64,000 nucleotides of DNA from Rhizobium sp. Q54. GTDB lineage: Bacteria; Pseudomonadota; Alphaproteobacteria; Micropepsales; Micropepsaceae. Positions 43,291 to 49,378 of this stretch are shown in pieces (within the stretch, counting starts at the first letter, position 1; every line of letters begins with the position of its first letter). Both the position numbers and the translations under genes were made by a program. The stretch spans positions 46,307 to 110,306 of the forward strand of contig CAMAPL010000007.1 in the NCBI GenBank assembly GCA_945860165.1, read 5' to 3'. The notes under the pieces were generated by a model. It made no database searches. It had not been told where the DNA came from and saw only the letters and a program-made list of their open reading frames with translations.

Positions 43291-43360
43291 TTCTTTATAT
43301 CCTCCTTGCCCCGTTTCCGGCCCGCTGCTATAGCCGCCTCGCAATTTGAGGAATCGCGCC

Positions 43361-44767
43361 ATGGCCGCCTTTAACGACTACATCGTCAAGGACATCTCTC
43401 TCGCCGAATGGGGCCGCAAGGAGCTCAACATCGCCGAGATCGAGATGCCGGGCCTGATGGCCACCCGCGCCGAGTATGGCAACGCGCAACCGCTCAAGGG
43501 CGCGCGCATCGCCGGCTCGCTGCACATGACCGTCCAGACCGCCGTGCTGATCGAGACCCTGCAGGCGCTGGGCGCCGACATCCGCTGGGTGTCGTGCAAC
43601 ATCTATTCGACCCAGGATCACGCCGCCGCCGCCATCGCCGCCGCCGGCATCCCCGTTTTCGCGATCAAGGGCGAGAGCCTGAAGGACTATTGGGACTACA
43701 CCGCCAAGCTGTTCGAATGGCACGGCGGCGGCTATCCCAACATGATCCTAGACGATGGCGGCGACGCCACCATGCTGGTGCATCACGGCCTGCGCGCCGA
43801 GAAGGGCGACGTCGCCTTCCTGGAAAAGCCTGAAAATGAAGAAGAAGAAGTCTTCTACGCGCTGATCAAGCGCCTGCTGAAGGAAAAGCCCAAGGGCTGG
43901 TTCGCCGAAGTCGCCGGCAACATCAAGGGCGTTTCGGAAGAAACCACTACCGGCGTGCATCGCCTCTACCTGATGGAAAAGGACGGCAAGCTGCTGTTCC
44001 CAGCCATCAATGTCAATGACAGCGTCACCAAGTCGAAGTTCGACAACCTGTATGGCTGCAAGGAATCGCTGGTGGACGGCATTCGCCGCGGCACCGATGT
44101 GATGATGGCCGGAAAGGTCGCCATGGTCGCCGGCTTTGGCGATGTCGGCAAAGGCTCGGCTGCGTCGCTGCGCAATGCCGGCTGCCGCGTCATGGTGTCG
44201 GAAATCGACCCGATCTGCGCCCTGCAGGCCGCCATGGAAGGCTATGAGGTCGTGACCATGGAGACAGCGGCGCCCAAGGCCGACATCTTCGTCACCGCCA
44301 CCGGCAATGTCGACGTGATCACCGTCGATCACATGCGGGCCATGAAGGACCGCGCCATCGTCTGCAACATCGGTCACTTCGACAGCGAGATCCAGATCGC
44401 TGCCACCAAAAACTTCAAGTGGCACAACATCAAGCCGCAGGTGGACGAGATCGAATTCCCCGACGGCAAGCGCATCATCATGCTGTCGGAAGGCCGCCTG
44501 GTGAATCTGGGCAACGCGATGGGCCACCCGTCCTTCGTGATGTCGGCCAGCTTCACCAACCAGACGCTGGCGCAGATCGAGCTGTGGCAGAACACGGGCA
44601 AGTACGAGAAGAAGGTCTATGTCCTTCCCAAGGTACTGGACGAGAAGGTCGCCCGCCTGCACCTGGCCAAGGTCGGCGCCGATCTGACCGAACTCAGCAC
44701 CAAGCAGTCCGACTACATCACCATCCCGAAGGCGGGCCCGTATAAGCCGGACACCTATCGCTACTAA
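43361..44767 (+). CDS. ahcY: Adenosylhomocysteinase
   Basis: Hydrolyses S-adenosylhomocysteine to adenosine and homocysteine, restoring methylation capacity. At 468 aa it has the NAD-binding motif [15 protein letters not shown] and the usual C-terminal [12 protein letters not shown]. The start [11 protein letters not shown] at 43361 is preferred. A strong terminator lies downstream. The 119-bp leader contains a small hairpin but no SAH riboswitch that I can recognise. Confidence 0.97.
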
Positions 44768-44770
44768 CAA

Positions 44771-44882
44771 TTGTCATCCCGGGTCTGCGGCGCAGCGTGC
44801 AACGGTGCGCCACAGACCCGGGATCCAAGCGGTCGGAAAAATGGATCCCGGCTCGCGCGCTTCGCGCTTGGCCAGGATGGCA
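44771..44882. repeat. REP-like element after ahcY
   Basis: TTGTCATCCCGGGTCTG ... CAGACCCGGGAT is the main inverted pair, followed by a second GGATCCCGG ... CCAGGATGGCA segment with a CGCGCTTCGCGC hairpin. It resembles the elements at 20079 and 18032 in its GTCAT(T/C)CC ends. Confidence 0.8.
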
Positions 44883-44890
44883 GGGTTGAA

Positions 44891-44923
44891 AAAGGGCGCG
44901 TCCGCAAGGCGCGCCCTTTTCGT
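44891..44923 (+). terminator. Rho-independent terminator after ahcY
   Basis: Perfect 10-bp stem AAAGGGCGCG / CGCGCCCTTT with a 9-nt loop, then TTCG. The U run is short, but the stem is strong. Confidence 0.75.
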
Positions 44924-44929
44924 TTGTTC

Positions 44930-45150
44930 GCGCCCGCAGCACAGCCTTCCCGGGCGCTGGCGGTAAGGATTCATTAACGGTCTGATTTGACTCGGAAATA
45001 TCCACAGGCCGCTAAATCTGGGGCTGTTAGCCCCATTTCGTTTTTCATAATTTATTAACCACAATAGCTAGTCGGGCTCGCCATCCGAATCTATCTTGTT
45101 GATTCGAAAGTGATTCGCCGCAAAGGCGAGGTTTAACGGGGGCTGACGGC
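44930..45150 (+). promoter_or_regulatory. divL upstream region with five GANTC sites
   Basis: Five GANTC (CcrM-type) sites occur at 44968-44972, 44989-44993, 45087-45091, 45101-45105 and 45112-45116. The region is AT-richer than its surroundings, has TTAACC near 45055 and a GGGGCT-gtt-AGCCCC hairpin (45020-45034). GANTC density is about ten times what base composition would give. Methylation-dependent timing of divL expression is an inference from Caulobacter. Confidence 0.55.
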
Positions 45151-47580
45151 ATGCGTCCCAGAATGGGACAGAGCAGACGGCCGGGGGCACGGCGATGGCG
45201 GGGTTTCCTGCTGGCCGCTTTCCCCTGCGCCCTTATGCCTGGCCCGGCCTTGGCGGCCGTGCCCGACCTCCTCACCTTCCAGAACGGCAACATAATCGTC
45301 CTGTCAGCCCTGGCCTGTGGCGGCGTGGCGCTGGCCATCGCCGCAGGCCTCTGGGCATTGGCGGAACAGAGCACTACGCGCCGCCTACGCCGCTCGCTCC
45401 GGATGGTCGGCGCCAAGACCAAGGCAGCCGTCGGCGAACGCGACGCCCTGCTGGGCGCGGGCCGCGAGGGGCTGGTGGTCTGGGGCCGCGACGGTGCCGG
45501 GCCTTTCTCCTATGGCGGCGGCGAGGAAACATTGCAGTCCTGCCTGAAGGGGCCCAATGCCCTGGCCCTCTCTACCGCCCTGGACGGATTGTCGGACGGC
45601 GGCGCGGCGTTCCAGCTGGCGGTGCAGGACAGTCATGGCCGCAAGCTGACGGCGCGCGGCCGTGCCGTGGGCGGCATGGCCGCGGTGTGGCTGGAAGAAT
45701 CTGCGGTGGCGCAGGAGAGCGGCGAATACAAAGCCATTCTGGATGCTCTGCCGATTCCGGTCTGGCTGCGCGACAAGGGACTGGCGCTCACCTGGGGCAA
45801 TCATGCCTTCCTGAAAGGCGCCGGTGCCAAGGATATCGAGACCGCGCGCCGCGAGCAAGTCTCGCTGGACAAGAGCGAGCGCGATCTGGCCGCCACCGCG
45901 CGTTCGGAAAACGCCCAGCAGGAAGCCAAGCGCTTCTCGGTGGTGAACGGCCAGCGCCGCGCCCTAGCCTTTACCGAAATCCCGCTGGGCGATGCCGGCA
46001 TTATCGGTGCGGCGGTGGATGTCACCGATGTGGTGGCCGCCGAAGCCAAGCTGCAGCAGCATGTCGATGCCCATGCCGCCACGCTGGATACGCTGCAGAC
46101 CGCGGTGGCGATCTTCGGCCCGGACCAGAAGCTGCGTTTCTACAACAAGGCGTTTGTGCGGCTGTGGGGCCTGCCGGAAGGCTGGCTGGACAAACATCCC
46201 GGCGAAGGCGAAATCCTCGACCGGCTGCGCGACGGCCGCAAGCTGCCCGAACAGCGCGACTACCAGGCCTGGAAACGCGGACGCCTGGCGCTGTACCAGG
46301 ACGGCGCGCGCGAAAATGCCAGCGAAGAGGCCTGGCATATGCCCGGCGGCCAGACCATCCGCGTCGTCACCCAGCCGCACCCCTTCGGCGGCCTGACCTT
46401 CCTGTATGAAGACGTCACCGCGCGCCTGACCCTGGAAAGCGACTACAACACGTTGATGAAAGTGCAGTCGGCGACGCTCGACACGCTGAACGAAGGAGTG
46501 GCGGTGTTCGGTCCCGACGGCAAGCTCAAGCTGCACAACGCCGCTTTCTCCCGCATCTGGGAATTCGAAAAGGGCGAACTGGCCGGTGAGCCGCATGTGC
46601 GCACCATCGCGGCCCTGTCCAAGGACAAGTTCGGCGATACCGGCCTGTGGGAACAGCTGATCCATGCCATTGTCGCAGGCGTTGCGGCCCGCGACCTAGG
46701 CGAAATCGAGCGTTCCGACCGGTCCACCCTGTCGCTGTCCACCTCGCCGCTGCCCGATGGCGCCACTTTGGTGACCTTCAACGATGTCACCGACCGTTTC
46801 CGCATCGAGACGGCGCTGCGCGACCGCAACGAAGGACTGGAAGCCGCCGATCGGCTCAAGTCCGACTTCATCAAGCATGTCAGCTACGAATTGCGCACGC
46901 CGTTGAACACCATTCTGGGCTTCTCCGAGCATCTGGCCAGCGGCGTACCCGGCGCGCTGAACGAGCAGCAGGGCGAATATATCCAGGCCATTGTGGCGGG
47001 CGGCAACACCCTCAAGAGTCTTATCAACGACATTCTCGACCTGGCACTGGTGGAAACCGGCGCCTTGCGGCTGGAGCTGGAACGCATTGACCTGCACGAC
47101 ATCATCACAGAAGTGGCGACCCATGCGCGCGAATGGGCCAACAAGGTCGACCTCACCCTGCACGTCGATGTCGCGCCTAATGCAGGCAAGTTCCTGGCGG
47201 ACGGACGGCGGCTGCGCCAGATCATGTTCAACCTGCTTTCCAACGCCTTCAAATTCACCACGCGCGGCGGCGAGATCGTGCTGTCGGCGAAAATCGTGGG
47301 CGAGGATGTGCAGATTTCCGTGGCCGATAACGGCCCCGGCATCTCGCCCGAGGTGAAGGCCAATGTCTTTGAGCGTTTTTCGGCAAAAAGCCATTCCGGC
47401 CAGCGCTCCGGCGCAGGGCTGGGCCTGGCGCTGGTCAACCGCTTCCTGGAACTGCATGACGGCTGGGTGGAAATCGAAAGCACCCATGGCACCCTGGTGC
47501 GCTGCCACCTGCCGCGCCGCATCCATGACGACGAGCCTCACCCAGAGGTGAGTGGCGATAGGAAGACGGCGTATCTGTAA
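45151..47580 (+). CDS. divL: DivL-type noncanonical sensor kinase (Tyr in place of phospho-His)
   Basis: An 809-aa protein with an N-terminal hydrophobic or signal segment, a transmembrane helix (NIIVLSALACGGVALAIAAGLWAL), three PAS-like repeats (about 190-290, 305-430, 435-550), then a HisKA-like domain and an HATPase. The H-box reads FIKHVSYELRTPLNTILGFSE, so Tyr579 replaces the usual His. This is the hallmark of Caulobacter DivL (Tyr550). ATPase boxes are intact (NLLSNAFKF, VADNGPGISPE, SGAGLGLALVNRF). In Caulobacter DivL reads DivK phosphorylation and tunes CckA-CtrA. Position after ahcY agrees. The name rests on the Tyr swap, domain layout and context. Confidence 0.85.
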   Translation: MRPRMGQSRRPGARRWRGFLLAAFPCALMPGPALAAVPDLLTFQNGNIIVLSALACGGVALAIAAGLWALAEQSTTRRLRRSLRMVGAKTKAAVGERDALLGAGREGLVVWGRDGAGPFSYGGGEETLQSCLKGPNALALSTALDGLSDGGAAFQLAVQDSHGRKLTARGRAVGGMAAVWLEESAVAQESGEYKAILDALPIPVWLRDKGLALTWGNHAFLKGAGAKDIETARREQVSLDKSERDLAATARSENAQQEAKRFSVVNGQRRALAFTEIPLGDAGIIGAAVDVTDVVAAEAKLQQHVDAHAATLDTLQTAVAIFGPDQKLRFYNKAFVRLWGLPEGWLDKHPGEGEILDRLRDGRKLPEQRDYQAWKRGRLALYQDGARENASEEAWHMPGGQTIRVVTQPHPFGGLTFLYEDVTARLTLESDYNTLMKVQSATLDTLNEGVAVFGPDGKLKLHNAAFSRIWEFEKGELAGEPHVRTIAALSKDKFGDTGLWEQLIHAIVAGVAARDLGEIERSDRSTLSLSTSPLPDGATLVTFNDVTDRFRIETALRDRNEGLEAADRLKSDFIKHVSYELRTPLNTILGFSEHLASGVPGALNEQQGEYIQAIVAGGNTLKSLINDILDLALVETGALRLELERIDLHDIITEVATHAREWANKVDLTLHVDVAPNAGKFLADGRRLRQIMFNLLSNAFKFTTRGGEIVLSAKIVGEDVQISVADNGPGISPEVKANVFERFSAKSHSGQRSGAGLGLALVNRFLELHDGWVEIESTHGTLVRCHLPRRIHDDEPHPEVSGDRKTAYL

Positions 47581-48503: not shown

Positions 48504-49378
48504 GCCCCGCGCGTCGCCGCGCGTGTGTAGATCATATTGTTACAGAGCTGGGTGTTCCGCAGAGACGGGCCTGCTTGGCGCTAGGACAGCATTGGTCCAC
48601 ACAGCGCAAGATGCCGATCACGCCCGACGATGAAGCGGCTTTGACAGCCGACATCATCGAGTTCGCCCGCCAGTATGGCCGCTACGGATACCGCAGGGTT
48701 ACGGCGCTTCTTCGGTCCTCTGGGCGGAGGGTTAACAAGAATCGGGTTGAACGTATCTGGCGTCGTGAGGGGCTTAAAGTTCCAGCAAAACAGCCAAAAC
48801 GTGGTCGTCTATGGCTCAATGACGGGTCGTGCATTCGGCTTCGGCCAGAACGCCCCAACCATGTGTGGTCCTACGACTTTGTCGCCGACCGCACCCACGA
48901 CGCAAAGGTATTCCGGATGCTTTGCATTATCGATGAGTTCACACGCGAAGCGATTGCCATCCGTGTTGCCCGGTCTCTGAAGTCCACCGATGTGATTGAA
49001 GCGCTGTGCGATCTCTTTGTAGAGCGTGGTATCCCGGCTCACATACGATCTGACAACGGTCCAGAGTTTGTTGCCTTAGCTCTGAGGGAGTGGATTGCTG
49101 CTGTGGGCGCCAAGACTGCCTATATCGAACCAGGAAGCCCTTGGGAGAATGGCTACTGCGAAAGCTTCAACGGCAAGCTGCGGGACAAACTGCTCAACGG
49201 CGAGATCTTCTACACTCTCAAGGAGGCCAAGACCGTTATCGAAGCCTGGCTGAGGCACTACAACACCGTCCGCCCGCACTCATCGTTGGGATACCGTCCA
49301 CCGGCACCGCAGACCACAGTCTGGCCGCCAGATCAGCCGGCTAGCAAAGGGATGGTGCAAATGATGCCCTTAAACTAA
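48503..49378 (+). CDS. IS3-family transposase orfB (DDE integrase core)
   Basis: The integrase domain has the DDE residues in YDFVADRT, IRSDNGPEF and PWENGYCESFNGKL. The HTH_21 region lies near GRYGYRRVTALLR. The frame is open from about 48503 (the end of orfA, -1 relative to it), and the ORF track begins only at the TTG at 48575. Expression normally needs orfA-orfB frameshifting or coupling, which the amber in orfA would impair. Base composition is lower in GC than the flanking genes, fitting acquired DNA. Confidence 0.88.
   Translation, partial: SPARRRACVDHIVTELGVPQRRACLALGQHWSTQRKMPITPDDEAALTADIIEFARQYGRYGYRRVTALLRSSGRRVNKNRVERIWRREGLKVPAKQPKRGRLWLNDGSCIRLRPERPNHVWSYDFVADRTHDAKVFRMLCIIDEFTREAIAIRVARSLKSTDVIEALCDLFVERGIPAHIRSDNGPEFVALALREWIAAVGAKTAYIEPGSPWENGYCESFNGKLRDKLLNGEIFYTLKEAKTVIEAWLRHYNTVRPHSSLGYRPPAPQTTVWPPDQPASKGMVQMMPLN

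Follow-up and report, generated by a model that had tools for sequence, protein, structure and literature searches.

In Caulobacter crescentus and Brevundimonas subvibrioides divL lies within the measured GcrA regulon, and the same analysis, which took in Rhizomicrobium palustre, predicts it as a GcrA target in most Caulobacterales and as an auxiliary target outside that order (PMC7987155). The motif proposed there for activation by GcrA in Caulobacter is TGATTCG or, more broadly, YGAKTCK. GcrA acts on domain 2 of sigma at methylated promoters (reviewed in PMC7403470), and the CcrM-dependent genes of Caulobacter are predicted by conserved GANTC marks (PMC3973325).

The stretch of DNA analysed here (the window, 64,000 nucleotides in all, from an uncultured alphaproteobacterium) carries ahcY and divL as neighbours (Table 1). 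The divL product is a PAS-rich kinase with tyrosine in place of the HisKA histidine, the combination by which a DivL is recognized, and its motif FIKHVSYELRTP is identical in 30 of 30 loci. The terminator-like hairpin that follows ahcY suggests that divL is transcribed from its own promoter. A long, REP-like inverted repeat (tcccgggtctg...cagacccggga, 44777-44823) lies directly 3' of ahcY, and an IS3-like transposase reading frame is found downstream of divL (48575-49378). Upstream of divL, at −183, −162, −64, −50 and −39 relative to its ATG (45151), five GANTC sites form the densest cluster of the window. They fall exactly where an earlier note on this DNA had placed them, and the tight trio that it singled out spans 30 bp in total.

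Table 1. Coordinates of divL, its upstream neighbour and the features between them (positions within the window)
Feature	Position	Strand	Remarks
ahcY (S-adenosylhomocysteine hydrolase)	43346..44767	+	conserved neighbour upstream of divL
terminator-like hairpin AAAAGGGCGCG...CGCGCCCTTTT	44890..44920	+	between ahcY and divL; read directly off the sequence
GATTC	44968..44972	.	uppermost site; few relatives have one there
GACTC	44989..44993	.	upstream site; GANTC 95-125 bp before the doublet in 45/56 relatives
ATATCCACA, degenerate, DnaA-box-like	44998..45006	+	adjoins the GANTC at 44989
TTCA-N7-TTAACC, CtrA-like box	45044..45060	+	TTAACC in 51/57 relatives, TTAACCAC in 48/57
GAATC	45087..45091	.	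species-particular site, abuts the −10-like hexamer
TATCTT, −10-like hexamer (putative promoter)	45092..45097	+	3 bp before the doublet
GATTC (TTGATTCG)	45101..45105	.	upstream half of the doublet; TGATTCG in the window's own species
GATTC (GTGATTCG)	45112..45116	.	downstream half of the doublet; fits the extended GcrA motif TGATTCG/YGAKTCK
hairpin TCGCC-GCAAA-GGCGA	45115..45129	+	starts within the last GANTC; probable 5' leader hairpin
divL	45151..47580	+	PAS/HisKA/HATPase_c kinase; Tyr579 replaces the phospho-accepting His (FIKHVSYELRTP)

The earlier note had reckoned with about one GANTC per 300 bp. Dinucleotide shuffles of the window come close to this (248 ± 13 sites, one per ~258 bp), whereas the real sequence is depleted, with 104 sites or one per ~615 bp, and the cluster is more striking than claimed. 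In the 149-bp stretch that holds the five sites 0.55 are expected, and at least five occur in 0.025% of its composition shuffles (P 0.00025). The density elsewhere was taken from ~450 kb of the same genome, supplemented by pattern searches. Intergenic DNA there has 2.46 GANTC per kb and coding DNA 1.48, and not a single site occurs in 138 of the 219 intergenic regions; a density like that before divL is not typical of intergenic regions, whereas a similar density in most of them would, by the earlier note, have refuted the proposal. At least four sites per 150 bp occur at four places only, and five at two, divL and the ftsB promoter. In favour of mere chance, in intergenic DNA that is richer in AT, one could cite the composition-shuffle P of just 0.014 (1.4%) for the whole 383-bp region and the fact that the shuffle P values are post hoc, the region having been chosen afterwards. 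Conservation is the stronger test, and the rarity of such clusters in 450 kb, together with sites conserved by position in 56 of 57 species, leaves chance with virtually no credence; the conservation of the doublet described next refutes it.

Conservation was followed in 57 close relatives (divL identity 53-100%), made up of the 30 best divL-match loci, the window's own included, and 27 more from the same genus and a sister genus. The 250 bp before divL hold 241 GANTC against 51.9 expected, a 4.65-fold over-representation, and the observed/expected ratio of the other 15 palindromic NN-N-NN pentamers is at most 2.1. At least one GANTC is present in all 57 relatives and at least two in 56. A GATTC-N6..8-GATTC doublet is found in 56 of the 57, with a spacer of N6 in 51 (50 plus L032, whose second half fell outside the estimated start but is visible), N7 in four and N8 in one; one of the 57 species has lost a half (TTGATTTACAATTGATTC). 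Of the 56 relatives with a doublet, 55 have TGATTCG as its downstream half, this heptamer occurs somewhere upstream of divL in 56 of 57, and in the window's own species it is present in both halves. Broad conservation of the upstream sites, which the earlier note had proposed to look for, holds for the doublet (45101, 45112) and in part for sites ~26 bp and ~112 bp ahead of it; it does not extend to 45087 and 44968. Elsewhere in the family, other genera also carry paired GANTC upstream of divL, but differently spaced. GANTC before divL is confined to some orders, and of 19 other class members most have no more than one site in the 250 bp that precede the first ATG, gene starts being uncertain; class-wide conservation beyond the family is weak, with the same uncertainty of the start codons. 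Judged by these alignments, strong purifying selection seems to maintain methylation-linked control of divL in a mostly uncultured alphaproteobacterial clade.

CcrM recognizes GANTC without need for its middle T, and in the doublet this T is invariant. GATTC-N6-GATTC repeats with an 11-bp period, as does GTTC-N7-GTTC, the LexA motif of alphaproteobacteria, for which overlap with GANTC is known. Both features would also be expected if another protein bound here, for instance at a LexA-like direct repeat (ATTC-N7-ATTC), and GANTC were incidental. We consider this very unlikely: GTTC-N7-GTTC is found in 0 of 57 relatives, so a LexA box of 11-bp period at divL is excluded by sequence, the G and A of GANTC, for which LexA would have no need, are retained, the spacing of the doublet ranges from N6 to N8, and additional GANTC sites are enriched around it.

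In 50 of 56 relatives TATCAT or TATCTT stands 3 bp upstream of the doublet. TATCWT is probably the −10 element of the divL promoter, in which case the start site would fall within the doublet (whose halves would be at about −3 and +9). No good candidate for a −35 element was identified at divL; TTGATT in this role is ruled out, there being no AT-rich or conserved hexamer ~17 bp downstream. Some GANTC lies just before the hexamer, in the −10/−35 spacer of this presumed promoter, in 30 of 56 relatives, most commonly 26 bp before the doublet. Many GANTC-bearing cell-cycle promoters of Caulobacter carry the site in the −10/−35 interval (PMC4287350), and a doublet at about −3 and +9 would count against such a typical placement if TATCWT is the −10. 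The failure to identify a good −35, the restriction of GANTC within the class, the merely auxiliary rank given to divL outside Caulobacterales (PMC7987155), and the occurrence of clusters inside genes and at transposase promoters (see below) likewise count against regulation of divL by GcrA/CcrM.

The overlap with the start site that is expected of the doublet makes repression the main rival to activation: full methylation or a bound protein would shut off divL, hemimethylation after replication would release it, and CtrA or DnaA would act as the activator. The position of the doublet directly downstream of the conserved TATCWT and the conserved CtrA-like TTAACC box upstream accord with such a scheme, as does the activation of Caulobacter ctrA P1 by hemimethylation (PMC4287350). 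However, the downstream site of the doublet fits the GcrA activation motif TGATTCG and the two studied relatives have divL in the GcrA regulon, which makes repression improbable in our view.

When compared with TTAA-N7-TTAA(C), the CtrA-like box before divL has a conserved TTAACC half and a degenerate first half. Since the intergenic DNA of the same genome is 10-fold richer in TTAACC than its coding DNA, the TTNN-N7-TTAACC block (48-51 of 57 species) is read as a probable CtrA site. Within the box, TTAACCACA (45055-45063) has a single mismatch to the DnaA box TTATCCACA, and some close relatives have a better DnaA-like box than TTAACCACA near −150. At the DnaA-box-like site further upstream, several near relatives of the window's species have TTATCCACAG or TTGTCCACAG; such a site precedes divL in 15 of 57 relatives by a relaxed pattern and in 7 by a strict one. 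Brilli et al. (PMC2877005) predicted DnaA sites at divL in one alphaproteobacterial group. The probable leader hairpin has a mean MFE of −7.0 against −4.9 for shuffles (56 species), a modest excess, and in 52 of 56 relatives it folds with less than −3 kcal/mol while its sequence changes. An inverted repeat, GTCCCA-N4-GGGAC, spans the first codons of divL (45151-45172) and is present in most relatives; either a hairpin that regulates divL at its start codon or a true start further downstream could account for it.

The genome encodes the proteins that regulation of divL by GcrA/CcrM calls for. The ccrM homologue on which the earlier note had made its proposal depend is present (match to Caulobacter CcrM 6pbd, E 1.6e-166), with N6_N4_Mtase and RAMA domains and a score on the NCBIfam CcrM model of 634 bits, under its cut-off of 830. 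GcrA is encoded (PF07750, E 4e-47, above cut-off), as are ChpT and a CtrA with 80% identity to a Caulobacter-type CtrA query. With GcrA, CtrA and ChpT encoded, the proposed link from methylation to CtrA has its parts. The GANTC doublet before divL, with its downstream half in the preferred YGAKTCK/TGATTCG form, is conserved in nearly all the orthologues compared, as is expected of a promoter under GcrA and CcrM. In all likelihood divL is a cell-cycle gene under GcrA/CcrM control, as in Caulobacter, and we have good confidence that its promoter is methylation-responsive and cell-cycle-controlled, methylated by CcrM and dependent on GcrA and sigma70.

For divL we infer methylation, GcrA binding, promoter position, activation as the direction of the effect, and timing as follows. 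CcrM would methylate the adenines of the GANTC sites, and GcrA, an m6A-reading sigma70 cofactor, would bind mainly to the conserved doublet TTGATTC-N6-TGATTCG, with the site within the presumed −10/−35 spacer as a second binding place in many species. GcrA would then aid sigma70 polymerase in opening a weak promoter, with TATCWT as its probable −10. Once the locus is replicated, the sites would stay hemimethylated until CcrM returns, and divL output would follow the passage of the replication fork, with the upstream CtrA-like box (or the degenerate DnaA box) as a possible second input. DivL acts through CckA on the phosphorylation of CtrA, and the methylation module would thereby be joined to CtrA activity.

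Further dense GANTC clusters are found at the promoters of ccrM, ftsZ, ftsB and dnaG (gene names other than ccrM were assigned by reading translations), and the set also contains intragenic clusters, transposase promoters and an insertion sequence. A genome-wide search for three GANTC with gaps of ≤30 bp gave 21 forward hits at ~14 places, against 11 in the reversed control, and YGAKTCK is 2.8-fold enriched in intergenic over coding DNA. The ftsZ cluster (C6:91124-91158) includes a GATTC-N6-GATTC, and the ftsB cluster lies at C1:242412-242492. Upstream of ccrM, 5-8 GANTC within about 85 bp are kept in 30 of 30 relatives (L180 to L209; G000:C8:73596-73663 in the window's own genome), partly arranged as ~10-bp doublets. 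These sites are mostly at set positions (−84/−75, −55/−45 and −31/−21) and are denser than those at divL. The region upstream of ctrA has two adjacent GANTC (GAATCGAATC). The clusters at ftsZ, ftsB, ccrM, divL and dnaG are likely to represent a GcrA/CcrM division regulon of the clade. GANTC clusters or ACAGTGATTC are also seen at insertion-sequence ends or transposase promoters (L065:8129-8173, L177:1501, L179:99), where they could couple transposition to methylation state. N6 spacing as a genome-wide habit was rejected: there is no obvious excess of N6 among the GANTC pairs listed (gaps N3-N15), and an N6 pair at C3:125382 and an N7 pair at C1:82070 are both intragenic. ACWGTGATTC was discarded as a regulon motif, as it occurs at five places only (ftsB, ccrM, two insertion-sequence copies and one intragenic position).

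A tentative extension, which we regard as doubtful, is that the TGATTC-N6-TGATTCG doublet is a composite site at which two methyl marks are read jointly, for example by a GcrA dimer; the ccrM promoter, with its ~10-bp GANTC doublets, would belong to the same class. If this is true, divL and ccrM would respond more steeply to methylation than promoters with a single site. The fixed spacing offers a precise target, two TGATTC half-sites that would couple DivL, and hence CtrA activity, to replication-dependent methylation, and the clade-wide alignments are a natural dataset on how GcrA reads paired methyl marks.

The GcrA/CcrM promoters of C. crescentus and B. subvibrioides (PMC7987155, PMC3667746) resemble the one proposed here in the gene itself, divL being among their targets, in the presence of both reader and writer, in the TGATTCG/YGAKTCK motif and in having several sites per promoter. 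Unlike them, this putative promoter has a rigid GATTC-N6-GATTC beside TATCWT, kept throughout a clade of uncultured alphaproteobacteria. Caulobacter ctrA P1 (GANTC plus a CtrA half-site) is similar in that GANTC lies near the core promoter, a CtrA-type TTAA is present and the output feeds CtrA control; it differs in that its GANTC is near −29 (PMC4287350), whereas the divL doublet lies by the presumed start, and in that P1 drives ctrA and the doublet promoter divL. The ccrM promoters of the clade share the multiple GANTC, partly as ~10-bp doublets, but have more of them than divL and serve another gene. The rigid, phased doublet is the sole feature for which we found no description in the literature consulted. 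Methylation-linked control of divL is an already known idea, to which the clade-specific phased doublet is a new and well-conserved addition; control of this kind, known from the Caulobacterales, would extend to another, mostly uncultured clade, together with the clusters at ccrM, ftsZ, ftsB and dnaG.
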